This document shows positions 43 through 51,555 of a stretch of DNA of 52,101 bases, piece after piece. The position numbers and the translations under genes were made by a program. The DNA is from Chitinophagales bacterium (lineage in GTDB: Bacteria; Bacteroidota; Bacteroidia; Chitinophagales; Saprospiraceae): contig JAAFJT010000026.1 of assembly GCA_013298955.1 (NCBI GenBank), forward strand, positions 1 through 52,101. The letters are read 5' to 3'. How positions within the stretch are numbered: position 1 is the stretch's first letter; every line of letters starts with the position of its first letter. The notes below the pieces were generated by a model. It was not told where the DNA came from. It saw only the letters and a program-made list of their open reading frames with translations, and searched no databases.

Positions 43-1020
43 CTAAGTTAACCATTCCCGCGCATCTCGGGCGGCATACGTGATGATTGCGGAGGCACCT
101 GCCCGCTTGAACGCCGTCCAAAGTTCGATATGGGCTACGTTTTTTTCAATTAAATGTTCTCTCACTAACAAATCAATTGCAGCATATTCACCACTTACAT
201 GATATATAACTAATGGAATATCAGTTTTTTGCGATAATCTTACCAAAATATCCAAATAGGGCAAAGCTGGTTTGACCATTAAGAAATCCGCGCCTTCTTG
301 GGCATCGCGCAGGGAAGACGAGATGGCATCATGCAAATTACTGGGGTCAATTTGATAGGTTTTGCGCCCTTGTAATTTCAAGGTTTTATCAGGCGTTGAT
401 TTGCAAACATCCCGAAACGGGCCATAAAAATTAGAAGAAAATTTGGACGAATAACTCATAATACTCACAACATCATGTTTATGAGCATCTAATATTTGAC
501 GAATAGCTTTAATGCGTCCATCATTCATGTCGCTTGGCGCAATGCAATCGGCTCCTGCGTTTGCCAACGTCAAAGCATAATCTGCCAAAATTTGAACGGA
601 GAGGTCATTTTCCATCCGCGTTTTTTCGGCATTCAGTACGCCGCAATGCCCATGTACGGTGTAACTGCACAGGCATAAATCGCAAGCTAACCAAATCGCA
701 TCGCCAAAACATTGTTTGATATGACGAACCACTTTTTCAGCAAATTCAAAATTAAACTCATATTCAAATCGTTGATTTGGAATGGGAAAGAGTAAAAACT
801 TGTGTACCCCTTTCGCAACATCATCCGTAATTTGTTGGATAATCGACGTTTCCGTATCGGTGAAAACGCCTGACATGGATGGGTTTGCAATGCGTTCTGG
901 AATGCCTTGTTCAACGAAAATGGGTTGTATCAAGTCGCGGTGCGAAATCGTGACCGTTCCCGCTAATTCGCGGACATGCGTACTCGCTCTTAGGCGACGT
1001 TGATTCATATAAAAATTCAT
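43..1020 (-). CDS. hemB: Delta-aminolevulinic acid dehydratase (porphobilinogen synthase)
   Basis: Condenses two 5-aminolevulinate molecules to porphobilinogen in the cytosol, the second committed step of tetrapyrrole synthesis. The 325-residue length is normal for the family. The two Schiff-base lysines are visible: K193 in the motif SSKFSSNFYGPFR and K250 in MVKPALPYLD. The cysteine cluster CDLCLCSYTVHGHCG (C116, C118, C126) is the zinc-binding type rather than the magnesium-dependent type that lacks the cysteines. An alternative ATG lies four codons downstream of the one chosen. It is the third gene of a minus-strand operon hemA-hemCD-hemB, separated from hemCD by a large palindrome. Confidence 0.97.
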   Translation of the reverse strand: MNFYMNQRRLRASTHVRELAGTVTISHRDLIQPIFVEQGIPERIANPSMSGVFTDTETSIIQQITDDVAKGVHKFLLFPIPNQRFEYEFNFEFAEKVVRHIKQCFGDAIWLACDLCLCSYTVHGHCGVLNAEKTRMENDLSVQILADYALTLANAGADCIAPSDMNDGRIKAIRQILDAHKHDVVSIMSYSSKFSSNFYGPFRDVCKSTPDKTLKLQGRKTYQIDPSNLHDAISSSLRDAQEGADFLMVKPALPYLDILVRLSQKTDIPLVIYHVSGEYAAIDLLVREHLIEKNVAHIELWTAFKRAGASAIITYAARDAREWLT

Positions 1021-1032
1021 AATTATTGGATG

Positions 1033-1146
1033 TTTTGAATTAGGATTTGTAGGATTTTGTAGGATTGGTTTTGTAAGATTTTTTTTAAAATCTTACAAAA
1101 TCAATCCTACAAAATCTTAAAAATCCAAAAAATCCTAATTCAAAAA
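1033..1146. repeat. Long imperfect palindrome built of TAGGATT-type modules
   Basis: The left arm beginning TTTTGAATTAGGATT (1033-1047) pairs with AATCCTAATTCAAAA (1132-1146), and the inner part consists of repeated TGTAGGATTTTGTAGG-like units. It fills the gap between hemCD and hemB and includes the hemCD stop codon (1135-1137). Related TTAGGATTTTTAGGAT modules occur at 27436-27570, 41258-41280 and 47110-47198. Confidence 0.85.
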
Positions 1147-2640
1147 TGATTTGATATTTGGAAAAATGATAGGTGTAATACCTTGTTTTATAAATAATTC
1201 GGCGGTTTTGCCTGCGGCGCAAGCATGTATCAAATGGGGTTTTAACAACGGTTTTGAAATCAAATATTGTTCAAAATTCGTCCAAAAAATAGCATCTGCC
1301 GTTTGCATTGCCGCCGAAACCGCTTCTGTTAAACGCGGTATCAGCCGATAAGAAGAAGCCGTTTGATACGTCGGTTGCCAATGTGCTTCGGCGGCTTCAT
1401 TCGTCAAAATCAAAATATTTTTTTTCAATAGGTGAAATAACGGTCGTTCAAACACAGGCAACAAAGATTCAAAGCCAAAACCATCCGCACAACCCGATAC
1501 CCAAATGCCTTTTTGCGCCAATTGAAACCACGTTTTGGTGCCAGAAGCCCAAATGGTTTTTGATTTTAAAATATTTAATATTTTTGAATCAGTTGCGGTT
1601 CGGTGGTGTGCAACGAATATCGTTTCGACTTTTTGTAATTTATTTATAAAATTTTCATCTATTGTAAAATATTGATAATCAAAAAAATCGCGCATAAAAT
1701 CAGTGGTCGAAACCAATTTTTTACCTGCTATCAATGCCGTTAATTTATTTTCAAAATGAAACACATTGATGGATTGATTGCCCGATTTGCCCTTCAAAAT
1801 GGAAAAATTCAGCCCTTTGAAATCCACATTCACCACCCCAAAACGTTGATGACAACCCGCCCCATATTGATGCGCAAACGCCCGTTCTTTGAGCAAGTTC
1901 GACATCAAATCAGGTTGATGAATCGCAGGCAATAAGGCTGCCGCCGCCGCATTCGTTGCCAAACACTCCACTAATAACGCGCCTTGACCCGCCGCAGGAG
2001 GCACTTCCGTCATCGGCAACAACATTTTGGGCAAGCCTTTTAACAATTCAGCCACTATCGGTTCGTGTTCCAAGAGGCGATTCAGCCCCGCCGCCGCCAA
2101 TGCAATCGCATCATAATCCCCCTTTCGGAGCTTGCGCAATCGCGTATCGACATTTCCACGAATATTTAAAATCTCTATTTGAATAGGCGTTTCAGCTAAT
2201 TGCGGTAACGCTTTTTGCAAAAACGGTGGAATCAATTCTGCCCGCCGCAAGGAAGAAGTCCCAAGTCGAATCGGTTGCCCCATTTTTAATTTTTCCAAAA
2301 TATTATTTTGAAAAATCACAACATCCCGAACATCATTGCGCTCGACAAGCGCAATTTTAAAATTAGGGTCTGTTAATTTCTCCGCACTCACGTCTTTCAT
2401 GGAATGAACCGCGAAATCCGCATTGCCCGACTCCAAAACCGCTTGAATATCTTTGGTAAAAATATTTTTATCGCCCATCTGATATAAAGGAGTCGTTTGG
2501 TCTAAATCGCCTTGAGACGGTTTCGACAAGACTTCAATGCGCGTATTTGGGCAATTTTGTTCCATCAATCGTTGAACGGTATGTCCTTGAATCAACGAAA
2601 GTTTTGAATTGCGACAGATAATTTTAAAACTATTTTTCAT
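1135..2640 (-). CDS. hemC: Hydroxymethylbilane synthase fused to a uroporphyrinogen-III synthase-like domain
   Basis: The first roughly 320 of 501 residues are HemC, which links four porphobilinogens into hydroxymethylbilane. Visible are the catalytic aspartate in HSMKDV (D83) and the dipyrromethane-cofactor cysteine in YGAGCHQRFG (C263), with the arginine-rich LRRAEL and RGNVDTRLRKL segments that bind the chain. Residues about 338-501 have the layout of a HemD-like uroporphyrinogen-III synthase domain (for example IFVAHHRTATDSK and ADAIFWTN), but HemD diverges so strongly that this half is less certain. I start at the ATG at 2640 because the protein then begins MKNSFKIICRNSKLSLIQ, the normal HemC N-terminus; a start further upstream (2685) would read through the palindrome. 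It is the middle gene of the heme operon, and its stop codon lies inside a palindrome. Confidence 0.93.
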   Translation of the reverse strand: MKNSFKIICRNSKLSLIQGHTVQRLMEQNCPNTRIEVLSKPSQGDLDQTTPLYQMGDKNIFTKDIQAVLESGNADFAVHSMKDVSAEKLTDPNFKIALVERNDVRDVVIFQNNILEKLKMGQPIRLGTSSLRRAELIPPFLQKALPQLAETPIQIEILNIRGNVDTRLRKLRKGDYDAIALAAAGLNRLLEHEPIVAELLKGLPKMLLPMTEVPPAAGQGALLVECLATNAAAAALLPAIHQPDLMSNLLKERAFAHQYGAGCHQRFGVVNVDFKGLNFSILKGKSGNQSINVFHFENKLTALIAGKKLVSTTDFMRDFFDYQYFTIDENFINKLQKVETIFVAHHRTATDSKILNILKSKTIWASGTKTWFQLAQKGIWVSGCADGFGFESLLPVFERPLFHLLKKNILILTNEAAEAHWQPTYQTASSYRLIPRLTEAVSAAMQTADAIFWTNFEQYLISKPLLKPHLIHACAAGKTAELFIKQGITPIIFPNIKSFLN

Positions 2641-2653
2641 ATAAATATTTTGC

Positions 2654-2768
2654 AACACATAATTCACATAGGAGGACATAAGCACATAGGATTTTCATTT
2701 GGGCGGATGTAGCTGCATTTCAATATAAACCATATGCGCCCTATGTCCTCCTATGTGAACTATGTGTT
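2654..2768. repeat. Palindrome of CACATAGG-type modules between hemA and hemCD
   Basis: The left arm (2654-2680, containing CACATAGGAGGACATA) pairs with the right arm (2740-2768), with one difference in the outer part. It ends one base before the hemA stop and 14 bases upstream of the hemCD start, so it fills the gap almost exactly. The same module type forms the outer arms at 17487-17680. Confidence 0.85.
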
Positions 2769-3995
2769 TCAAATGTATAAAACAATTTTTAAGGCGGTTA
2801 CTAATTGTTGGATTTGCACCAAATTATGTTTGGCATTAATGATGATACGCAAACAGGCTTGCCCTTTTGGGACGGTTGGATAATTAATAGGTTGTAAATA
2901 AATGCCATGTGTTTTCAACAACGCATCCGCAATCGCCTTGCAACGACTGCTGCTACCAATATGAATCCGTGTAATATGAGACGCATGCCCACTAAATGTA
3001 ATTTGATTTTCAATCAACATGTTCCGAAAAATTTGTATATTTTCGTGAAAACGTTGCATGATTTCAGGATTTTGTTTTACAATAGAAATGCTTTCCGTAA
3101 TCGCCGCACAAGTCGCGGGCGGCAACGAACTCGTGAAAATATAGCCTTCTGCATGACTTCGGATAAAATCCATTGTTACCAAACTGCCAGCTAAAAACCC
3201 ACCAATCACCCCATAAGATTTGGCAAAAGTGCCATTTAATATATCAATTTGATGGCTAAAACCCATTTGTTCCACATAACCTGCGCCATGTGTCCCATAC
3301 AAGCCGACAGCATGCACTTCATCACAATACGTTAAAACATTATATGTTTGAGCTATTTCAACGATTTTTTGGATGGGCGCGACCGTTCCAGACATCGAAT
3401 AAACAGATTCAAAAGCAATCACTTTGGGTGCATCTATGGGTAATTGTTTTAAAATCGCTTCAAGCTGCACCATATCATTGTGTGCAAAAATGTGTTTTTG
3501 ACACTTGCTCGCCCGCAAACCTTCTATCATCGAAGCGTGATTTTCCTCATCTGAAATGAAAATACACCCTTTTAAATGCCTACCGAGTGTTGTTAACGCT
3601 GTTTGATTTGCCAAATAAGCCGAATTAAACAGCAATGCCGCCTCTTTTTGGACAAGTTGCGCCGTCGCTTTTTCAAGGGCGCGGTGAAAAGTCGTCGTGC
3701 CACTGATATTACGCGTGCCGCCACTGCCCGTTCCCGCTTGGTCAATCGCAGCTTTTGCGGCGGCTTGCACGGCGGGATGCGTTGTCTGCCCCAAGTAGTC
3801 GTTGCTGCAAAAATTGATGGCTTCCGCCAGATTGCCTTGCGCATCCGTGTATCGAAAGGCAGGAAAATGAGCCGCAGAACGCTCCATTTCTAAAAAATAA
3901 CGATAATGACCTTGCTTTTTCAACGCATCTAAGGTTTGAGCAAAGTAATTTTCGTAATTTAAACGGTCTTGGGCAGCGATTTCACTTGTTTTCAT
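2769..3995 (-). CDS. hemA: 5-aminolevulinate synthase (C4/Shemin pathway), PLP-dependent
   Basis: Predicted to condense glycine and succinyl-CoA to 5-aminolevulinate, the first step of the C4 heme pathway. The 408 residues fit the alpha-oxoamine synthase family, and the detailed motifs are those of ALAS rather than of KBL, BioF or CqsA: GHYRYF (R32, succinate-binding arginine position), FCSNDYLG, GTGSGGTRNISGT (T94 and N96 match the succinyl-recognition pair), NHASMIEGLRASK, CDEVHAVGLYG (D225), the PLP lysine K259 in NGTFAKSYG, GYIFTSSLPP, and QPINYPTVPKG near residue 370. It is the first gene of the operon with hemCD and hemB and is divergent from hpt. ALAS is unusual in Bacteroidota, which normally use GltX/HemA(GluTR)/HemL. 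Function is inferred from motifs and linkage. Confidence 0.93.
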   Translation of the reverse strand: MKTSEIAAQDRLNYENYFAQTLDALKKQGHYRYFLEMERSAAHFPAFRYTDAQGNLAEAINFCSNDYLGQTTHPAVQAAAKAAIDQAGTGSGGTRNISGTTTFHRALEKATAQLVQKEAALLFNSAYLANQTALTTLGRHLKGCIFISDEENHASMIEGLRASKCQKHIFAHNDMVQLEAILKQLPIDAPKVIAFESVYSMSGTVAPIQKIVEIAQTYNVLTYCDEVHAVGLYGTHGAGYVEQMGFSHQIDILNGTFAKSYGVIGGFLAGSLVTMDFIRSHAEGYIFTSSLPPATCAAITESISIVKQNPEIMQRFHENIQIFRNMLIENQITFSGHASHITRIHIGSSSRCKAIADALLKTHGIYLQPINYPTVPKGQACLRIIINAKHNLVQIQQLVTALKIVLYI

Positions 3996-5266: not shown

Positions 5267-5338
5267 AAGTTTCGGAAACGAAATTTTTAAATAAATTGTT
5301 TAAAATAAATTTATTTAAAAATTTCGTTTCCGAAACTT
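5267..5338. repeat. Palindrome with GTTTCGGAAACG core sequence
   Basis: The arm starting AAGTTTCGGAAACGAAATTT (5267-) pairs with its complement ending at 5338, around an AT-rich centre. It covers the first two bases of the M16 peptidase stop codon (5337-5339). The GTTTCGGAAAC motif is shared with the cluster at 48304-48361. Confidence 0.85.
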
Positions 5339-6584
5339 ATTCTAAAACCTTTTCTGGCAAATAATACAACACAGAACAATTCCATTCATGCAAATATTTT
5401 TGCGCAACCATTTGAATATCAAGGGCTTCTATTTTCAAATAGGCATCAATTTCATTATTAATCCAATCGGCATTGCCCAGCCATTCAAAATAGGCTAAAT
5501 TCATCGCTTTATTCAAAGCTCCAATATCGCCAAACGTTTGTTGACTTTCCAATTTATGCTTAAACTTTTGTAACTCAACACTTTGCACCAATTCGGTTTT
5601 CAATAAATCCAATTCGACCCAAATCGCCGCTTCTGCTTTTTCCAACGAAACGCCTTCTGCGGGCTTGCCTTCCACCACCAATAAACCTGCATCCGCCGTC
5701 CCCGTTTGATAACAATCAATTTCCGTGAACACTCGTTGCTCTTTCAACAGTCGCCGATACAACCGCGATGAACTACCCGTACTCAAAACATCCGTCAACA
5801 TATCGGTCGCATGGTAATCTGCCGCCAACCGCGCAGGGGCATGAAACGCCATGTAAATCGCCGGAACGGGAATCGCTTGTTTCAAAATTTTGCGTTTTTG
5901 CGCTGTTTGCGGCGGCTCTTGAGGCAAATTGCGGATATATTTTTCACCCGCAGGAATCTCACCAAACCATTTTTCTGCCAAAAAACGAACATTTTCAAAC
6001 GTTACATTGCCCGCAATCACCAAAATTGCATTGTTTGGCGTGTAAAATCGCTTATAAAAATCCTTCACATCTTCCAAAGTCGCTTGTTCGATGTGCGCAG
6101 GCTCTTTGCCAATCGTCGGATACCGATACGGATGCGTCGAAAACGCCATTTCGCCGAGATGATGCCAAATATCACCATACGGTTCATCCAAAGTGGTCTC
6201 TTTGAACTCCTCTACAACCACTTTTCGCTGTGTATTCAACGCTTTTTTATGAATCGTCAATGCCAACATGCGGTCTGATTCCATCCAAAATGCCGTTTCA
6301 AGGTTTTGAGCAGGCATAGTCATATAGAAATTCGTCATATCAGAATTAGTAAAAGCATTGTTTTCACCTCCAGCGCGTTGAATGTGCGTATCAAAATCTT
6401 TAATATGTTTAGAGCCGCCAAACATTAAATGTTCAAAAAGGTGCGCAAACCCTGTTTTATCAGGCGATTCATCCCGCGAACCAACATCATATAACAAATT
6501 GAAAGCGGCTGTCGGCGTACTTGTATCCACATGCACCAAAACGCGCAAACCATTTTTTAATATAAACTTTTGATATTCAATCAT
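5337..6584 (-). CDS. M16 family zinc metallopeptidase (pitrilysin/insulinase type)
   Basis: A 415-residue peptidase with the inverted zinc motif HLFEH (H48, E51, H52) and the third-ligand region VVVEEFKET about 75 residues later, so this is a catalytically competent M16 subunit. The C-terminal half (about residues 190-400) is the second M16 domain. There is no signal peptide. Many Bacteroidota carry a second, inactive M16 partner next to the active one; none is adjacent here. It is a monocistronic minus-strand gene with a promoter-like TACATTTG upstream, and its stop codon is partly covered by a palindrome. Confidence 0.93.
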   Translation of the reverse strand: MIEYQKFILKNGLRVLVHVDTSTPTAAFNLLYDVGSRDESPDKTGFAHLFEHLMFGGSKHIKDFDTHIQRAGGENNAFTNSDMTNFYMTMPAQNLETAFWMESDRMLALTIHKKALNTQRKVVVEEFKETTLDEPYGDIWHHLGEMAFSTHPYRYPTIGKEPAHIEQATLEDVKDFYKRFYTPNNAILVIAGNVTFENVRFLAEKWFGEIPAGEKYIRNLPQEPPQTAQKRKILKQAIPVPAIYMAFHAPARLAADYHATDMLTDVLSTGSSSRLYRRLLKEQRVFTEIDCYQTGTADAGLLVVEGKPAEGVSLEKAEAAIWVELDLLKTELVQSVELQKFKHKLESQQTFGDIGALNKAMNLAYFEWLGNADWINNEIDAYLKIEALDIQMVAQKYLHEWNCSVLYYLPEKVLE

Positions 6585-12106: not shown

Positions 12107-13363
12107 ATGTTTTTCCCGAAAAAAATACTCCCATTTTTATTGCTTTCCTTCCATTTACAGGCTCAAGCCCCTTTAAATCCGTCGCTTGAAGATGATGTTA
12201 TGGGCGAAAATTGGGCTTCTGTCAAATTTCATCCTATGGGTCAGCCTTTGCAGATGCCGATTATGGACTTACAAGGGGGCAGTCTGCTCCTGTCTTTCGA
12301 TGATTTAGATGCTGATATTAAAAGATTGTATTATACGATTCAACATTGTGATGCCGATTGGAAACCATCTAAATTGGAGCAACAAGAGTTTATGATTGGT
12401 TTTAATGAAGAACAAATTACCAAATATCACGCTGCTTTCAATACGTTGATTCCGTACATGCACTACGAGTTAAATTTGCCTAATGAAAACTTATCTTTCA
12501 CCAAATCAGGGAATTATACTTTAAAAATTTTTGATGATTTGATTCATAAAAAACCATTGATTACGCGTCGATTCGTTATTTCAGAATCGTTGGCGGCGGT
12601 GATTCCACAGCTCACGTTTTCCAATATAACCAAGTATAATACACACCAAGAGTTTGATTTTCAATTAGTTGCGAAAAGCTATCGGATTGCTAATCCCTTG
12701 ATAGAAGTGCGGGCAACGATTTTGCAAAACAATCGGTGGGATAAATCCTTGTCGAATATCGCGCCTTTGTATGTGAAAGGCGAGGAAATTCAGTTTGATT
12801 ATCAAGATAAAATCGTTTTTTCGGGCGGCAAAGAGTTTCGACAGGTGGATTTGCGGAGTACACGCATGCGCAGTGAGCGTGTTGCACAGTTAGAGCGCGG
12901 GAATGAAACTTGGGATTACACTTTATTCGCAGATGTGGATAGGTCGGGCATGCCCTATTTGTTTGACAAAGATGCGAATGGCAATTACGTGATTGAGAGT
13001 AAGGATAGCGACCAAAGTGAGGTGAAAGGCGATTATGTAAATGCGCACTTTACATTGAAAATCAATGAGTTAGACTCAGGAGATGTGTATGTGATGGGCA
13101 GTTTTGTAGATTGGAAATTGCGCCCGTTTTGCAAAATGAAGTTTAATGGAAAGGCGTATGAAACCGATATTTTGTTAAAACAAGGATATTATAATTATCA
13201 ATATGTAGTTGTTTATCCAAAGGAGCAACCTAATTTTGAAATGTTGGAAGGCAGCAGCTACGAAACGGAAAATGATTACACTATTATTATGTATCATCGA
13301 CCGTTTGGGGCGCGTTATGACCGTGTGATAGGGATTTCGCGGTTTTCATCGACCCAAAAATAG
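12107..13363 (+). CDS. Type IX secretion system plug-type protein (DUF5103)
   Basis: A 418-residue protein with a signal peptide (MFFPKKILPFLLLSFHLQAQ) followed by the two-part DUF5103 architecture: an N-terminal beta domain (about 25-130, with LLLSFDDLDADIKRLYYTI and HCDADWKPS) and a C-terminal all-beta domain (about 130-415, with YTLFADVDRSGMPYLF and a carbohydrate-binding-like MGSFVDWKLRPFCKM). Members of this family are the periplasmic plug that closes the SprA translocon of the type IX system. This fits the several T9SS-sorted proteins in the window. I use the ATG at 12107 because it gives the signal peptide directly; upstream in-frame starts add 27 poorly conserved residues. A strong terminator follows. 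Confidence 0.9.
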   Translation: MFFPKKILPFLLLSFHLQAQAPLNPSLEDDVMGENWASVKFHPMGQPLQMPIMDLQGGSLLLSFDDLDADIKRLYYTIQHCDADWKPSKLEQQEFMIGFNEEQITKYHAAFNTLIPYMHYELNLPNENLSFTKSGNYTLKIFDDLIHKKPLITRRFVISESLAAVIPQLTFSNITKYNTHQEFDFQLVAKSYRIANPLIEVRATILQNNRWDKSLSNIAPLYVKGEEIQFDYQDKIVFSGGKEFRQVDLRSTRMRSERVAQLERGNETWDYTLFADVDRSGMPYLFDKDANGNYVIESKDSDQSEVKGDYVNAHFTLKINELDSGDVYVMGSFVDWKLRPFCKMKFNGKAYETDILLKQGYYNYQYVVVYPKEQPNFEMLEGSSYETENDYTIIMYHRPFGARYDRVIGISRFSSTQK

Positions 13364-13609: not shown

Positions 13610-14665
13610 ATGGCAAACGAGAAAAACGAAAAAGACGCAAAGTTCAAAGCCTTGCAAGCCACTCTGGAACGACTCGACAAAACCTATGGCAAAGGAACGG
13701 TCATGAAGTTGGGCGAAAAACAAGTGGAAGAGGTTGAAACGATTTCCACAGGTTCTTTGGGTTTGGATGTCGCGTTAGGAGTTAATGGGCTTCCAAAAGG
13801 TCGGGTGATTGAAATCTATGGACCCGAATCTTCTGGTAAAACAACATTGGCGATTCATGCGATTGCGGAATGTCAGAAAAAAGGCGGTATTGCGGCAATT
13901 ATTGATGCAGAACATGCTTTTGACCGTTTTTATGCACAGGCTTTGGGCGTAGATGTGGATAATTTGTTGATTTCGCAGCCTGACAATGGAGAACAAGCGT
14001 TGGAAATAGCGGATAATTTGATTCGCTCTGGCGCGGTGGATATTATCGTGATTGACTCGGTGGCGGCGTTAGTGCCGAAAGCGGAGATTGAAGGGGAGAT
14101 GGGCGAGTCAAAAATGGGTTTGCAAGCGCGATTGATGTCGCAAGCCTTGCGGAAATTGACGGCTACAATTGGGCGGACGAATTGTTGCTGCATTTTCATC
14201 AATCAGTTGCGGGAGAAGATTGGCGTGATGTTCGGCAATCCTGAAACGACGACTGGTGGTAATGCGTTGAAATTTTATGCGTCGATTCGATTGGATATTC
14301 GCAAATCGGGTTCGGCAATTAAAGATAAGGATGGCAATTTAACAGGCAATCATGTAAAAGTAAAAGTAGTGAAAAATAAATTAGCTCCACCTTTCCGGAT
14401 TGCAGAGTTTGATATTGTGTTTGGCAAAGGGATTTCCAAAGTGGGCGAGATTGTGGATATGGGCGTTGAGACGGAGGTAATGGGCAAAAGTGGGTCTTGG
14501 TACAGCTATCGCGGGGCGAAAGTGGCGCAAGGTCGGGAAGGCACGAAAACGTTTTTGGACGATAATCCTGAAGTTGCAAACGAAATCGAAGCGGAAATCA
14601 AACGCCGCTTGGAAGCCAATCCAAGCAAAATCAAAGTGACTGCGCCTGTAGAAACAGATGATTAG
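13610..14665 (+). CDS. recA: Recombinase RecA
   Basis: DNA-dependent ATPase that forms the filament for homologous recombination and activates the SOS response. Length is 351 residues. The Walker A loop GPESSGKTT (71-79), the Walker B segment [14 protein letters not shown], the MSQALRKLT region, [24 protein letters not shown] (loop 2) and the lysine/glutamate-rich tail are all present. The gene is followed by a palindrome and then recQ on the same strand, but the gap of 465 bases with its own promoter suggests separate transcription. Confidence 0.99.
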
Positions 14666-14708
14666 TATTTGAAAGCCTCTATAATCATACTGGATTGGGG
14701 CAAGCAGA

Positions 14709-14758
14709 AAAAGGGTGTATTTCAAAGGGGCATATGCTCCTTTGAAATACACCCTTTT
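14709..14758. repeat. Palindrome downstream of recA
   Basis: Arms AAAAGGGTGTATTTCAAAGG and CCTTTGAAATACACCCTTTT are perfect over 20 bases around a 10-base loop (GGCATATGCT). It is probably the structure that ends the recA transcript, with a weak T-tract on each side. Confidence 0.8.
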
Positions 14759-14852
14759 GAGTTGATGTCTATTTTTATTTTATAAGGAGGTGCGTCGAAC
14801 GGCTCGGTTTGACCTTTTGCAATGGTCTCAAATTATCTATAAGAGGAATAGG

Positions 14853-14902
14853 ATGGCTACTTCAAAGCGTTCCTTTTGCAAGAAACGCCTTGAAGTAGCC
14901 AT
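14853..14902. repeat. Palindrome ATGGCTACTTCAA...
   Basis: Arms ATGGCTACTTCAAAGCGTT and AACGCCTTGAAGTAGCCAT pair with one slip (AAAGC versus AAGGC). No U-tract follows. Confidence 0.75.
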
Positions 14903-14961
14903 AGCAACTTTTACAGCCACTTCTTTTTTTCAAACCAAACGAAAAAATTTGATTTTTAAGT

Positions 14962-14969
14962 TATCTTTG
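14962..14969 (+). promoter_or_regulatory. Candidate -7 element for recQ
   Basis: TATCTTTG matches TAnnTTTG exactly, 162 bases upstream of the recQ ATG. The long leader includes the dispersed 35-base repeat. Confidence 0.4.
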
Positions 14970-15011
14970 TACTGAAAACGAGTGCAAATCAATCTTTTGT
15001 TGCTGTTTTCA

Positions 15012-15046
15012 ATGATTTAAGTGGTTCATATTAAAGAATCGACTAC
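15012..15046. repeat. Dispersed tail repeat without its palindrome
   Basis: This 35-base stretch, containing TTTAAGTGGTTCATATTAAA, matches 33470-33504 at most positions. In inverted orientation it also resembles the sequence beside palindromes at 6688-6720 and 4941-4975. Here no palindrome adjoins it. Confidence 0.6.
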
Positions 15047-15130
15047 TTAACCATTAAAAAATACCCAATTATTAAAAATTTGAATCTGATTGAACCCCCT
15101 AAACATCAACTTTAGATTTGGTAAAATACG

Positions 15131-17467
15131 ATGGAGACAGCTAAAAAAGCCTTAAAAAAATATTTCGGATATGACGCTTTTCGCCCTATGCAGGCGGATG
15201 TCATCCGCACGATTTGCGAAGAACGCCGCGATGCACTCGTGTTGATGCCCACAGGTGGCGGCAAATCAGTGTGTTTTCAAATCCCGGCGGTCATTTCAGA
15301 TGGGGTGGCAATCGTCGTTTCGCCCTTGATTTCGTTGATGAAAGACCAAGTAGAAGCCTTGTTACAAAACGGGATTCCTGCGGCATATTTCAACTCTTCG
15401 CAAACCGCAAGAGACCAACAAATCGTTGAAAATCAATTGTTTGCTGGTAAATTAAAATTGTTATATGTCTCGCCAGAGAAGATGGTTTCGGCGGGATTTG
15501 TATCGTTGTTGCGGTCGTTGCCGATTAGCTTGTTTGCGATAGATGAGGCGCATTGTATCTCCTCTTGGGGGCATGATTTCCGCCCCGAATACGCGCAAAT
15601 GCAGTTTTTAAAACAACAATTTCCAACGATTCCCGTCATCGCGCTCACGGCAACCGCCGATAGATTGACCCGCAAAGATATTATTGAAAAATTAGCTTTG
15701 AATAATCCCGAAGTCTATATTGGTTCGTTTGACCGACCCAATTTGTCGTTGGAAGTGCGCCCCGGACAGAAGCGTTTTGAACAAATTGTTGATTTTCTCA
15801 AAGGGCATCCGCGTCAAGCGGGCATTATTTATTGTCTGAGTCGCAAAAGTACGGAGGATTTGAGTGAGCGTTTGAAACTCAAAGGCATCAATGCGGCGTG
15901 TTATCATGCGGCGTTGCCGAATGAAACGCGTTCCAAAGTGCAGGAAGATTTTCTAAATGATCGGTTATTAATCGTCGTTGCGACCATCGCTTTTGGGATG
16001 GGCATTGATAAAAGCAATGTTCGATGGGTGATTCATTACAATTTGCCTAAAAATATTGAGAGTTATTACCAAGAAATTGGTCGCAGTGGGCGAGATGGCG
16101 CGCCTGCGGAGACGATTTTGTTTTATAGCATGGCGGATGTCAATGCGTATCATGGCATGTTTGCGGACGCAAAAGGCGATAATCAAGGGTTGCAATTTGC
16201 CAAATTGGATAGAATGTTGAAATTTGCGGATGCGGCAATCTGTCGGCGGAAGATTTTATTGAATTATTTTAATGAACATTTGGCTGAAAATTGTGGCAAT
16301 TGTGATGTTTGCAAACATCCACCGCGTTATTTCGACGGGACGAAACCCGTACAAATGGCACTTTCTGCCGTTTTTCGCTTGAAAGAATCCGTTAATATGA
16401 CGATTTTATCAGAAGTATTGAAAGGTTCTGCGCGGGCGGAAATCTTGGAAAATGGTTATCAACATATTAAAACTTATGGTGCAGGACGCATGTACACCTA
16501 TCCTGAGTGGACGAGTTACATTTGGCAGATGATTCAATTGGGTTTGTTAGAGATTGCGTATGATGAAAAAAATTATTTGAAGTTTACACCGCAAAGTCGT
16601 TCCGTTTTGTTTGATAGTAAAGTGGTGGAATTGGTGCAACCGATGAGTTTCAAAGATAGGCAAGTAGCGCGTGATAAAGAATTGGAAACCAATAAGTTAG
16701 CAGAAACGGCTGCGCCAAGATTGCGGGTTCGGAATGAATTATTTGAAGTTTTGCGCGAGTTGCGGGCGGAAACGGCGCGGGAACGCGGTGTGCCACCGTA
16801 TTTGATTTTTTCAGATAAAACGTTGGCAGAAATGGCGGGTATGTTGCCGAAAACAGAGGCGGAATTGTTACAGGTGGCGGGCGTAGGCGATTTGAAAATG
16901 CAGCATTATGGCGATGTGTTTTTGAAAGCGATTGTCCAATTTTTAAAACAAAATCCTGATTTTGAGCCTTCGATTCCGATGCCGCGTCCAGCTGATTTAG
17001 AACCCATTCTTCTTGAAAAACCAGAAATTGCCCCACAAATGGGCGAAAAACCAGTCAAAGAGTCTAAAATTGTCGAAGTAAAACCTGAAAAAACGGTCAA
17101 AGAACCTAAAATCATTGAAAAAAAGCAACGGATGGAAAAAGAACCGCCCATGCCTAAAATTCCAACGGTGCAACAAACCTTTGCTTTGTACCGTCAAGGA
17201 TTGACGATTGCGGAAATTGCGGAACAGCGTTTTTTATCACCCATTACGATTAATTCGCATTTGACACAGATTTATGAGCAAACGGATGAGTTGGAAATCA
17301 CCGATTTTATTCCCTTAGAAATTTTGAATAAAATTACAAATGTATTACCTTCATTGATTGAGCCTTTTAAATTTAAAGAAATTTATGAATATTTTGGTGA
17401 AACAGTGGGGTATGAACAGATTCGGTGGGCAGTGGCGTATTATCAGAAACATCGGGATACGGTGTGA
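15131..17467 (+). CDS. recQ: ATP-dependent DNA helicase RecQ
   Basis: 3'-5' superfamily 2 helicase acting in recombination and fork repair. At 778 residues it is longer than E. coli RecQ (about 610), as is common in Bacteroidota. Order: helicase core with TGGGKS (41-46) and DEAH (138-141); motif VI as QEIGRSGRDG; a zinc-binding cysteine set (about 373-396, ending CGNCDVC); the RQC winged helix (about 405-510); an HRDC domain (about 540-620, YLIFSDKTLAEMAGMLPK); then a proline/lysine/glutamate linker (about 625-680, with repeated KEPKI and KPEK units); and a C-terminal helix-turn-helix domain (about 683-775, LTIAEIAEQRFLSPITI). Confidence 0.97.
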   Translation: METAKKALKKYFGYDAFRPMQADVIRTICEERRDALVLMPTGGGKSVCFQIPAVISDGVAIVVSPLISLMKDQVEALLQNGIPAAYFNSSQTARDQQIVENQLFAGKLKLLYVSPEKMVSAGFVSLLRSLPISLFAIDEAHCISSWGHDFRPEYAQMQFLKQQFPTIPVIALTATADRLTRKDIIEKLALNNPEVYIGSFDRPNLSLEVRPGQKRFEQIVDFLKGHPRQAGIIYCLSRKSTEDLSERLKLKGINAACYHAALPNETRSKVQEDFLNDRLLIVVATIAFGMGIDKSNVRWVIHYNLPKNIESYYQEIGRSGRDGAPAETILFYSMADVNAYHGMFADAKGDNQGLQFAKLDRMLKFADAAICRRKILLNYFNEHLAENCGNCDVCKHPPRYFDGTKPVQMALSAVFRLKESVNMTILSEVLKGSARAEILENGYQHIKTYGAGRMYTYPEWTSYIWQMIQLGLLEIAYDEKNYLKFTPQSRSVLFDSKVVELVQPMSFKDRQVARDKELETNKLAETAAPRLRVRNELFEVLRELRAETARERGVPPYLIFSDKTLAEMAGMLPKTEAELLQVAGVGDLKMQHYGDVFLKAIVQFLKQNPDFEPSIPMPRPADLEPILLEKPEIAPQMGEKPVKESKIVEVKPEKTVKEPKIIEKKQRMEKEPPMPKIPTVQQTFALYRQGLTIAEIAEQRFLSPITINSHLTQIYEQTDELEITDFIPLEILNKITNVLPSLIEPFKFKEIYEYFGETVGYEQIRWAVAYYQKHRDTV

Positions 17468-17486
17468 GATTCATTATACATTGAAA

Positions 17487-17680
17487 CACATAGGGCACAT
17501 AGATTTCATAGGACACATAGTTGTTATGTAAATAATTGAAAATTAGCAACTTAACGTGCGTCAAGTTTGAAACTTGACGCACGCTTTGCGCATATTATGT
17601 AAAAAATTAAATTTCAATCATTTACATAATAAAGAAAGATTGCCCCTATGTGTCCTATGAAACCTATGTTGCCCTATGTA
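17487..17680. repeat. Triple-nested palindrome (three different modules inside one another)
   Basis: The outer arms (17487-17520 and 17646-17680) are CACATAGG-type, like 2654-2768. The middle arms (17526-17545 and 17604-17627) read ATGTAAATAATTGAAA and complement with small differences. The inner element (17555-17583) is a perfect 29-base palindrome CGTGCGTCAAGTTTG..CTTGACGCACG with the GTTTGAAAC core. It lies between the convergent recQ and the T9SS type-B gene. Confidence 0.85.
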
Positions 17681-27344: not shown

Positions 27345-27415
27345 TATATATTTTAAAGAAAAGTAAAAAGAGTTACAAGGTATTCGTATCAAAGATTGTT
27401 TTTCTAATCCTATCT

Positions 27416-27590
27416 AACCTAAGTTGCGCGGTAAGGTTTGAATTAGGATTTTTAGGATGATTTGGATTCAATTGGGATTGATTTTTAGGATTTTTTAGGA
27501 TGAAATCCTAAAAAATCCTAAAAATCAATCCCAATTGAATCCAAATCATCCTAAAAATCCTAATTCAAACCTTACCGCGCAACTTGGGTT
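27416..27590. repeat. Near-perfect 175-bp palindrome, 86-bp arms with 3-base loop
   Basis: The left arm is 27416-27501, the loop GAA is 27502-27504 and the right arm is 27505-27590; I find one mismatch, in the outer arms (AACCTAAG versus AACCCAAG). The outermost module is AAGTTGCGCGGTA, as in 25056-25218. The inside is TTAGGATTTTTAGGAT-type sequence. A palindrome this long with such a short spacer is usually unstable in bacteria that have SbcCD. Confidence 0.95.
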
Positions 27591-27596
27591 ATCTAT

Positions 27597-33469: not shown

Positions 33470-33617
33470 ATGCTTTAAGTGGTTAATGTTAAATAATCGA
33501 CAACAACGTTTCGAGGGTTTCAAACCCTGTCCCTTACCCACAAATTTCGTAAATTTTTCAAATTTACGAAATTTGTGCGCAACAAATTTCGTAAATTTGA
33601 AAAATTTACGAAATTTT
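33470..33617. repeat. Tail repeat, small palindrome and two tandem AAATTTCG palindromes
   Basis: 33470-33504 is the dispersed tail repeat (see 15012-15046). 33514-33528 is the palindrome AGGGTTTCAAACCCT. 33541-33575 and 33583-33617 are two successive palindromes, each made of CAAATTTCGTAAATTT and its complement, separated by TGCGCAA. The block lies between the convergent beta-helix gene and rpoN. Confidence 0.85.
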
Positions 33618-49968: not shown

Positions 49969-50046
49969 GATTTTGTGGTTTGCGAAATGATGCGTTTATT
50001 TGCAACGGGTTTACGCAAAAGATGCCCTAAATTTCAATACCATTAT

Positions 50047-51555
50047 ATGTCAGATTTTAAAGATGTCGAAAAGGCGTTGTGGACGGCTGCCGACAAAATG
50101 CGCAGTAATATGGACGCTGCTGAATACAAACATGTCGTCCTCGGACTCATTTTCTTAAAATATATTTCTGATGCGTTCAGCGATTTAAACGCGCTTTTAC
50201 ACGCAGGCGTAGGCGAATACGCGGGCGCAGACCCCGAAGATGCGGACGAATATGCCGCAGCCAATATTTTTTTCGTCCCTGAAAAAGCGCGTTGGAAGGC
50301 GTTGCAAGCTCGCGCCAAACAACCTGAGATTGGTGCTGCATTAGACGAAGCGATGGATGCGATTGAACGCATTAATCCGTCGCTTAAAGGCGTGTTGCCT
50401 AAAATCTATGCTGACCCGGATTTGAATAAACAACGGCTTGGCGAATTGATTGATTTGATTGGTACGATTGGATTTGCGCAAGCGGGGCATCACGGTAAGG
50501 ATTTATTAGGGCGCGTGTATGAATATTTTTTAGGTCAATTCGCTGATGCCGAAGGCAAAAGTGGTGGACAATTTTATACGCCTCCAAGTATTGTCAAACT
50601 TTTGGTGGCGATGCTCGAGCCTTTCAATGGGCGGGTGTATGATGGTTGTTGTGGGAGTGGCGGGATGTTTGTGCAATGTGAAAAATTTCTTTCGAGTCAT
50701 CAAGCCAATCTTCAAAATTTATCTATTTTTGGGCAGGAAAGTAACCCGACCACTTTGCGATTGGCGAAAATGAATCTTGCGATTCGGGGTATTGATGCGC
50801 GCATTGAACTCGGCGATACGCTCCTCGACGATAAACATAAAGACCTCAAAGCGGATTTTGTCATGGCGAATCCGCCGTTTAATATCAGCGATTGGAGTGG
50901 CGAGTTCCTCCGCGATGACAGCCGTTGGACGTTCGGTACGCCCCCGACCGGCAATGCGAATTATGCTTGGTTGCAACATTTTTTTCATAAATTGAGTCCG
51001 CGCGGCACCGCAGGCATTGTCTTGGCAAACGGCAGCATGAATAGTAATTCGGGCGGCGAAGGCGACATTCGCAAACGCATGATTGATGCCGATTTGATTG
51101 ATTGTATGGTCGCGCTGCCCGCACAATTGTTTTATAACACGATGATTCCGGCTTGTTTGTGGTTCCTTTCCAAAAATAGAGCGCATCGAAATCAACAAAT
51201 TTTGTTTATAGACGCTCGAAAATTGGGCGTAATGACCAATCGCCGAAATAAAGAATTGACCGATGCCGATATTTTACAAATCGCCGATACGTACCACGAT
51301 TGGCGCAATGCCAATGGTAAGTATGCCGATGTCGCAGGTTTCTGTAAAGCGGCTTCGATGGAAGATATCAAAACGAATCAATATGTGTTGATGCCCGGTC
51401 GCTATGTCGGCACCGAAGCCGAAGAAGAAGATACTGTGCCGTTTGCTGAGAAAATGAACGCGTTGACCGAAACGCTGGCGAAACAGTTTCAACAAAGTGC
51501 CGTCTTGGAAAAAACAATCCGTGAACATTTAAAATCAATTGGTTATGAATTTTAA
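50047..51555 (+). CDS. hsdM: Type I restriction-modification system, DNA methyltransferase subunit
   Basis: A 502-residue N6-adenine methyltransferase subunit. Starts [20 protein letters not shown] (N-terminal HsdM helical domain, with [15 protein letters not shown]), followed by the SAM-binding motif [11 protein letters not shown] (199-206; the family usually has DPACGSGG) and the catalytic NPPF (275-278), with [13 protein letters not shown] before motif I. I use the ATG at 50047; the in-frame start at 49975 sits in the terminator flank. The next gene, hsdS, overlaps it by 11 bases. The hsdR gene would lie beyond the window or elsewhere. Confidence 0.96.

Follow-up and report, generated by a model that had tools for sequence, protein, structure and literature searches.

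A 5-aminolevulinate synthase gene cluster of a Chitinophagales bacterium as the probable start of a siroheme-dedicated C4 pathway

The use of sulfate and nitrite depends on the cofactor siroheme, and the usual gene set of a cluster for assimilatory sulfate reduction consists of cysH, cysD, cysN, SUMT, cysJ, cysI and cysG_N. In Chitinophagales a C5 heme operon was read in locus L026 in the order GluTR-hemC-hemD-hemE-hemF-hemB-hemL (hemF by reading only). One paper states that alphaproteobacteria and most eukaryotes use the C4 pathway and all other bacteria the C5 pathway (PMC11480375); in another, the users of the C4 pathway are some alphaproteobacteria and most eukaryotes (PMC7242693). A literature search in titles and abstract openings of open-access papers found no paper on 5-aminolevulinate synthase (ALAS) in Bacteroidota, and nothing on ALAS with siroheme or on a siroheme-only C4 pathway.

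The window, i.e., the whole stretch of 52,101 nucleotides analysed here, is the complete contig C125 of a 4.68-Mb Chitinophagales genome (204 contigs, 97.95% complete, 0.48% contaminated). It carries a gene cluster that, judged from sequence comparisons, is very probably the front end of a siroheme-dedicated C4 pathway in a predicted heme auxotroph. The features of the cluster are:

2769..3995, minus strand: ALAS (hemA, C4 type), 408 aa, ATG start, first gene of the cluster
2649..2773: inverted repeat between ALAS and hemCD, arms 2649-2680 and 2742-2773, 94% complementary
1135..2685, minus strand: HemC-HemD fusion (hydroxymethylbilane synthase and uroporphyrinogen-III synthase), TIGR00212 and fold match
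1040..1129: inverted repeat between hemCD and hemB, arms 1040-1082 and 1087-1129, 91% complementary
43..1020, minus strand: HemB (porphobilinogen synthase), NF006762 342.6 bits over 297

The three genes lie on the same strand, with ALAS first in transcription order and the HemC-HemD fusion and HemB downstream, which agrees with the operon of ALAS with hemC/D and hemB given in the preliminary description. Upstream of ALAS, a hypoxanthine phosphoribosyltransferase gene runs in the opposite direction from 4071. The contig ends 42 bases past hemB and the operon may therefore continue.

Identity of the three genes

The protein encoded at 2769-3995 is predicted to be a C4 5-aminolevulinate synthase, an identity confirmed by curated models, tree and motifs. 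It scores 476 bits against the NCBIfam equivalog model of ALAS (TIGR01821, cut-off 338.55), and the models of the sister families remain under their cut-offs: BioF 320 (426), glycine C-acetyltransferase 311 (460), serine palmitoyltransferase 271 (640) and the CqsA type 176 (428). Its best five PDB matches are all ALAS, with 7x98 and 2bwn first and human ALAS2 among them. YRYF (residues 31-34), GSGGTRNISGTT (90-101), CDEVHAVGLYG (224-234), NGTFAKSYG with K259, and QPINYPTVPKG (368-378) were read directly in the open reading frame, where all ALAS-specific motifs listed earlier are thus present. K259, R32, N65, T94, N96, H153, S200, D225, H228, T374 and R383 are invariant in 7/7 sequences (the window protein and six relatives); we take K259 to be the PLP lysine and the other columns to be ALAS active-site residues. 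In a tree with neither CqsA nor an experimentally named KBL or BioF among its rows, 51 ALAS rows, including the window protein, split from eight sub-cut-off relatives of the same order at 100/100.

The alpha-oxoamine synthase family is prone to substrate change, and the BioF and KBL models do match the window protein, below cut-off, so the protein might be another aminoketone synthase with a different product. We regard this as very improbable, given that only the ALAS equivalog model is passed, that the protein groups with ALAS away from the eight related enzymes of the order, and that its gene is co-directional with hemCD and hemB in a genome where no alternative source of 5-aminolevulinate (ALA) was found. 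The choice of ALAS over KBL, BioF or CqsA made in the preliminary description thus stands. Loss of the heme-feedback site was considered as a mark of a siroheme-only ALAS and set aside as uninformative, because most alphaproteobacterial ALAS also lack the His/Cys heme ligands according to PMC6154995; their absence would show nothing.

The true start of the HemC-HemD gene is likely the ATG at 2640 (501 aa), as judged from the alignment of relatives. Its hemC part is recognized by TIGR00212 with 196 bits over a cut-off of 164. Pfam and NCBIfam gave no match to the HemD part of the window protein, only HemC being recognized, and PF02602 matched 1/10 members of the fusion (E 0.0051). An AlphaFold2 model was built from ten relatives (pLDDT 87.1, pTM 0.88). 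In the fold search, model residues 17-313 matched HemC 4htg (Z 30.9), and residues 321-516 matched HemD 4es6 (Z 13.6, rmsd 3.4, 190 aligned) and further HemD structures 1wcx (Z 11.5), 3re1 (Z 11.1) and 3p9z (Z 10.7), scores to be read against unrelated binding-protein rows that reach Z 10-11 on other parts of the model. Since residues 321-516 match HemD structures, hemD is present and fused to hemC, and we consider the assignment of the modelled C-terminal half to uroporphyrinogen-III synthase as settled by the fold search.

HemB of the window contains the cysteine motif CDLCLCSYTVHGHC, which is presumably of the zinc type. It shares 53-59% identity with HemB from other ALAS clusters and 35-38% with HemB from C5 heme operons in related genomes.

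The inverted repeat at 2649..2773 would form a strong hairpin in RNA (z -10.98). As regulators of the ALAS operon the intergenic hairpins were set aside, as similar-sized repeats are common elsewhere on the contig and on contig C141 of the same genome. The window holds 25 pairs of inverted repeats of at least 24 nt. Other short-spaced ones lie at 27415-27591, 33542-33616 and 17497-17669 of the window and at 5306-5429 and 13029-13205 of locus L127, and several are composed of short units, e.g., CACATAGG or TAGGATT; together they are possibly a dispersed family of palindromic elements of this genome. Rfam gave no match at gathering score across the window, and so no riboswitch for the ALAS operon.

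Supply of 5-aminolevulinate and fate of uroporphyrinogen III

Glutamyl-tRNA reductase (GluTR) had no match at E 1e-3 in the window's genome (~98% complete), and for HemL this genome gave only weak class III aminotransferase-like matches, none scoring above 175 bits (cut-off 527). Therefore, ALAS is the only ALA source found and the C4 route appears to replace the C5 route; the preliminary description had allowed for either replacement or duplication. In the five other ALAS genomes of the order, GluTR matches were lacking in G249 and elsewhere confined to short pieces no higher than 29.6 bits (cut-off 209.55), and no HemL match exceeded 240 bits (cut-off 527). Counting these five with the window's genome, GluTR was over cut-off in 0/6 ALAS genomes versus 16/24 comparison genomes, and HemL in 0/6 versus 13/24. 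One genus (g99) is split: G095 has ALAS and neither uroporphyrinogen decarboxylase (UroD) nor ferrochelatase, and its genus mates G125, G159 and G223 have GluTR, HemL, UroD and ferrochelatase.

ALAS, HemC-HemD and HemB are common to heme synthesis, and the preliminary description had read the cluster as a heme operon. On that reading, a C4 route acquired by transfer would feed heme, and the remaining genes were missed or replaced by unknown enzymes. Heme and siroheme genes were searched in 23 hand-picked genomes of the 298 in the order, seven with ALAS (the window's genome, its congener G298 and five others of the order) and 16 without. UroD (PF01208) was found in 0/7 ALAS genomes versus 9/16 comparison genomes, and ferrochelatase (PF00762) in 0/7 versus the same nine of 16, by the same searches. 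Gaps in the assemblies are a poor explanation for the missing genes because four of the seven ALAS genomes (G249, G113, G095 and G187) consist of 3-10 contigs and are 99-100% complete. A route from siroheme to heme was not supported either: the Ahb siroheme decarboxylase domain (PF17805, the domain of AhbA/B, with AhbC and AhbD outside the search) was over cut-off in 0/24 genomes, where weak matches reached up to 15.6 bits against a cut-off of 27, and in 4/14 controls. The absence of hemE, hemH and the Ahb decarboxylase leads us to predict that the host is a heme auxotroph or heme-independent. A cytochrome c domain of the planctomycete type, with CXXCH, is encoded at the locus of the congener G298 and hints at heme use, in which case heme must be taken up.

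Some support for a heme operon comes from the 14 distinct ALAS-bearing genomes listed (15 entries, with G298 and G677 apparently the same genome): two, G679 and G681, have ferrochelatase. In G681, a Chitinophagaceae MAG, it lies within a heme operon (locus L216) of GluTR, hemC, hemD, hemE, hemB, hemL and hemH. This operon has its own GluTR and HemL, so that the ALAS, which in G681 lies in a siroheme cluster without hemCD and hemB (locus L052), would duplicate the C5 route. In G679 (ALAS locus L050), hemE and hemH occur on a contig of 3,357 bases whose membership in that MAG is uncertain; the hemE is 38% identical to hemE of G125. Either C4 and C5 routes coexist in G681 and G679, or the bins are mixed. 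Taken together, we consider it improbable that the cluster is the start of a heme operon, and the term 'heme operon' does not hold for the window's genome.

Besides lacking UroD, ferrochelatase and the Ahb decarboxylase domain over cut-off, the window's genome encodes SUMT, a CysG N-terminal domain protein, sulfite reductase and NirB. Its contig C122 carries cysH, cysD, cysN, SUMT, cysJ and cysI, with the CysG N-terminal domain protein on the opposite strand; cysH, SUMT (TIGR01469, 245 over 185), cysJ, cysI (TIGR02041, 791 over 756.55) and cysG_N (TIGR01470, 117 over 62.3) pass curated cut-offs, and cysD and cysN were assigned by reading. Contig C141 encodes NirB (TIGR02374, 1012 over 578) and, by reading, a NirD-like protein and a transporter; the model matches of a nitrate-reductase-like molybdoprotein on C141 were all under cut-off. 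A SAM riboswitch (85 bits) precedes cysH at 5791-5891 of locus L126 (about 13790-13890 of C122). The siroheme end of the pathway may thus be under sulfur control, with the ALAS operon lacking an Rfam match.

The siroheme-reductase domain (NIR_SIR) was found in 7/7 ALAS genomes versus 5/16 comparison genomes. A methylase of the SUMT class was present in all seven ALAS genomes, each of which has a single TP_methylase match that scores 141-162 bits and has the size of SUMT, and was confirmed as SUMT by NCBIfam for the window's genome and G298. SUMT and precorrin-2 are common to the siroheme and corrin pathways, and uroporphyrinogen III could accordingly be made for cobalamin, or for cobalamin and siroheme both. 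The corrin ring needs several more such methylases, but each of the seven ALAS genomes has only 2-3 TP_methylase matches in total. The three in the window's genome are SUMT and two RsmI-like proteins, therefore no corrin ring set is encoded there. Cobalamin synthesis was ruled out on this count and we give the cobalamin reading hardly any weight.

Siroheme reductase without ferrochelatase was found in seven of the 23 genomes, exactly the seven ALAS genomes. Five others have both siroheme reductase and ferrochelatase, all with GluTR over cut-off; seven have neither of the two, and neither ALAS nor GluTR over cut-off; the remaining four have heme genes and no siroheme reductase. Hence, in this hand-picked set and without correction for kinship, ALAS and ferrochelatase are mutually exclusive among the 12 siroheme-reductase genomes (7:0 versus 0:5, Fisher p 0.0013), and ALAS tracks siroheme reductase among the 14 genomes without ferrochelatase (7:0 versus 0:7, Fisher p 0.0006). 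G233 and G081 (genus g95), G093, G099, G155, G019 and G003 (98-100% complete) have neither ALAS nor GluTR over cut-off and lack UroD, ferrochelatase and siroheme reductase, i.e., no tetrapyrrole synthesis was seen in the families searched.

For the window's genome we propose that ALAS would condense glycine and succinyl-CoA to 5-aminolevulinate, which HemB would convert to porphobilinogen and the HemC-HemD fusion, assigned by sequence and fold, would bring to uroporphyrinogen III. SUMT and the CysG N-terminal domain protein of C122 would then lead to siroheme, which likely serves CysI in the reduction of sulfite and NirB in that of nitrite.

Distribution and descent of the cluster

ALAS is rare in the order and the phylum: with the window's genome counted, it is over cut-off in 6/298 genomes of the order, 3/395 of the phylum and 2/2 of the genus. 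A profile scan of 84,980 species genomes gave, among its best 80 loci, eight of Bacteroidota or Kapaibacterium and 72 of Alphaproteobacteria (by title). The 14 distinct loci compared here are the window, G298, those of five genomes of the order, and the rest from the best 80, where one of the eight is G298.

The order ALAS-hemCD-hemB occurs in 10/14 of the loci listed: the window, L021-L025, L046, L050 (where hemB reads short), L051 and L077. Loci L047, L049 and L052 and that of G298 do not have hemCD and hemB beside ALAS, and the contig of L049 ends soon after. In G298 the ALAS reading frame is intact; a free hemC (54% identical to hemC of G125) precedes it and a free hemD lies in the cys cluster. 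In 10/14 of the loci listed, a siroheme gene is found no more than 4 kb from ALAS. In relatives, ALAS-hemCD-hemB sits inside a sulfate-assimilation gene cluster, in L021 and L046 as one co-directional run cysH-cysD-cysN-SUMT-cysJ-cysI-ALAS-hemCD-hemB-cysG_N. No siroheme gene was seen near ALAS on the window contig, in the 13.6-kb locus of G298, in the Kapaibacterium locus L051 or within 4 kb in L049, where a nitrate-reductase-like gene is nearby. In L046, the gene at 13711-15222 encodes a CysG N-terminal domain fused to a TauE/SafE permease domain; proteins of ~500 aa with the same CysG N-terminal match in L021, L022, L023, L024 and L052 may be alike.

The tree comprised 59 rows: 14 ALAS of Bacteroidota and Kapabacteria, 26 alphaproteobacterial (25 of the 72 loci among the best 80 and one plasmid-borne), 10 viral (of 80 loci listed), one of Streptomyces, and eight outgroup rows (of 14 sub-cut-off relatives in the order); eukaryotic, gammaproteobacterial and most other ALAS are outside it. 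The 14 Bacteroidota and Kapabacteria rows form one clade (99/95), in which the window ALAS groups with G298 and Kapaibacterium (94/86), and the other 37 ALAS form another (87/87). Within the 37, a clade of 29 rows (26 alphaproteobacterial, two viral and the Streptomyces row; 99/95) contains no Bacteroidota. The AU test rejected the 14 being held with a Rhodobacteraceae-type clade of three (100/100; p 0.0198). Holding them with five Acetobacterales-type rows gave p 0.018, part of the loss being the rows' own since the best tree does not unite these five as a clade. The placement outside the sampled alphaproteobacteria leans on the 99/95 clade rather than on either AU test. Holding the 14 with the main viral clade was not rejected (p 0.174), and the sequences are compatible with a common ancestry with the main phage ALAS clade. 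Horizontal acquisition or an overlooked lineage had both been offered in the preliminary description; the tree bears out a separate, overlooked ALAS lineage, and transfer from within the sampled alphaproteobacteria is disfavoured (AU p 0.02).

An alphaproteobacterial contaminant contig in the bin was rejected as an explanation, as the window contig also carries the Bacteroidota-type genes for recA, a type 9 secretion plug-domain protein, a CHU_C sorting-signal protein and sigma-54. Contamination is unlikely also because the congener G298 carries ALAS over cut-off, and the ALAS clade is separate from the sampled alphaproteobacteria. Near the contig end, at 49975-51555, lies an HsdM-type N-6 DNA methylase gene, which may belong to a type I restriction system truncated there.

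The HemB identities follow the same pattern as ALAS, being higher among ALAS clusters than toward C5 operons. ALAS, hemCD and hemB therefore appear to travel as a set, independently of the native heme genes, and seem to have spread as a unit through Chitinophagales and Kapabacteria. We go one step further and suggest, as a reading that we moderately favour, a mobile and self-sufficient siroheme operon that leads from a TCA-cycle metabolite to siroheme and sulfite reductase, with ALAS replacing the two-enzyme C5 route. If so, lineages that lost heme synthesis could regain sulfate or nitrite assimilation, and a C4 pathway would end in siroheme alone.

Comparison with known systems

This distinct Bacteroidota ALAS clade is tied to siroheme by gene order and genome content, mostly in genomes where no heme synthesis was found. 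An animal-type ALA synthase that apparently supplies siroheme runs against the textbook rule on the users and the use of this pathway. If the siroheme reading is correct, one branch of tetrapyrrole synthesis can persist or be recovered in the absence of heme. Regulation could then be studied on a natural ALAS that has no part in heme synthesis, and prediction tools that count ALAS, hemB and hemC toward 'heme synthesis' would mislabel heme auxotrophs as prototrophs.

The window ALAS belongs to the same enzyme family as the alphaproteobacterial and mitochondrial enzymes, as its match to human ALAS2 illustrates, and shares 40-49% identity with the ALAS of alphaproteobacteria, viruses and Streptomyces in the comparison. 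Unlike the alphaproteobacterial and mitochondrial enzymes, it falls in a separate clade with Bacteroidota and Kapabacteria hosts, siroheme genes adjoin in 10/14 loci listed, and in 12/14 hosts listed no route to heme was found, as judged by ferrochelatase.

The phage enzyme vAlaS (PMC11480375) is likewise an ALAS outside the textbook hosts, and shared ancestry with it was not rejected. According to that paper, however, the phage genes occur alone or with heme-breakdown genes (PMC11480375), whereas the Bacteroidota-type ALAS sits in bacterial genomes, in the company of hemCD, hemB and siroheme genes.

The C5 heme operon of Chitinophagales performs the same middle steps and occurs in genus mates of the ALAS genome G095, but it differs from the window cluster in its separate hemC and hemD, in a HemB of only 35-38% identity and in leading to heme. 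Finally, unlike the usual cluster for assimilatory sulfate reduction, L021 and L046 add the genes from ALA to uroporphyrinogen III, with ALAS at their head.
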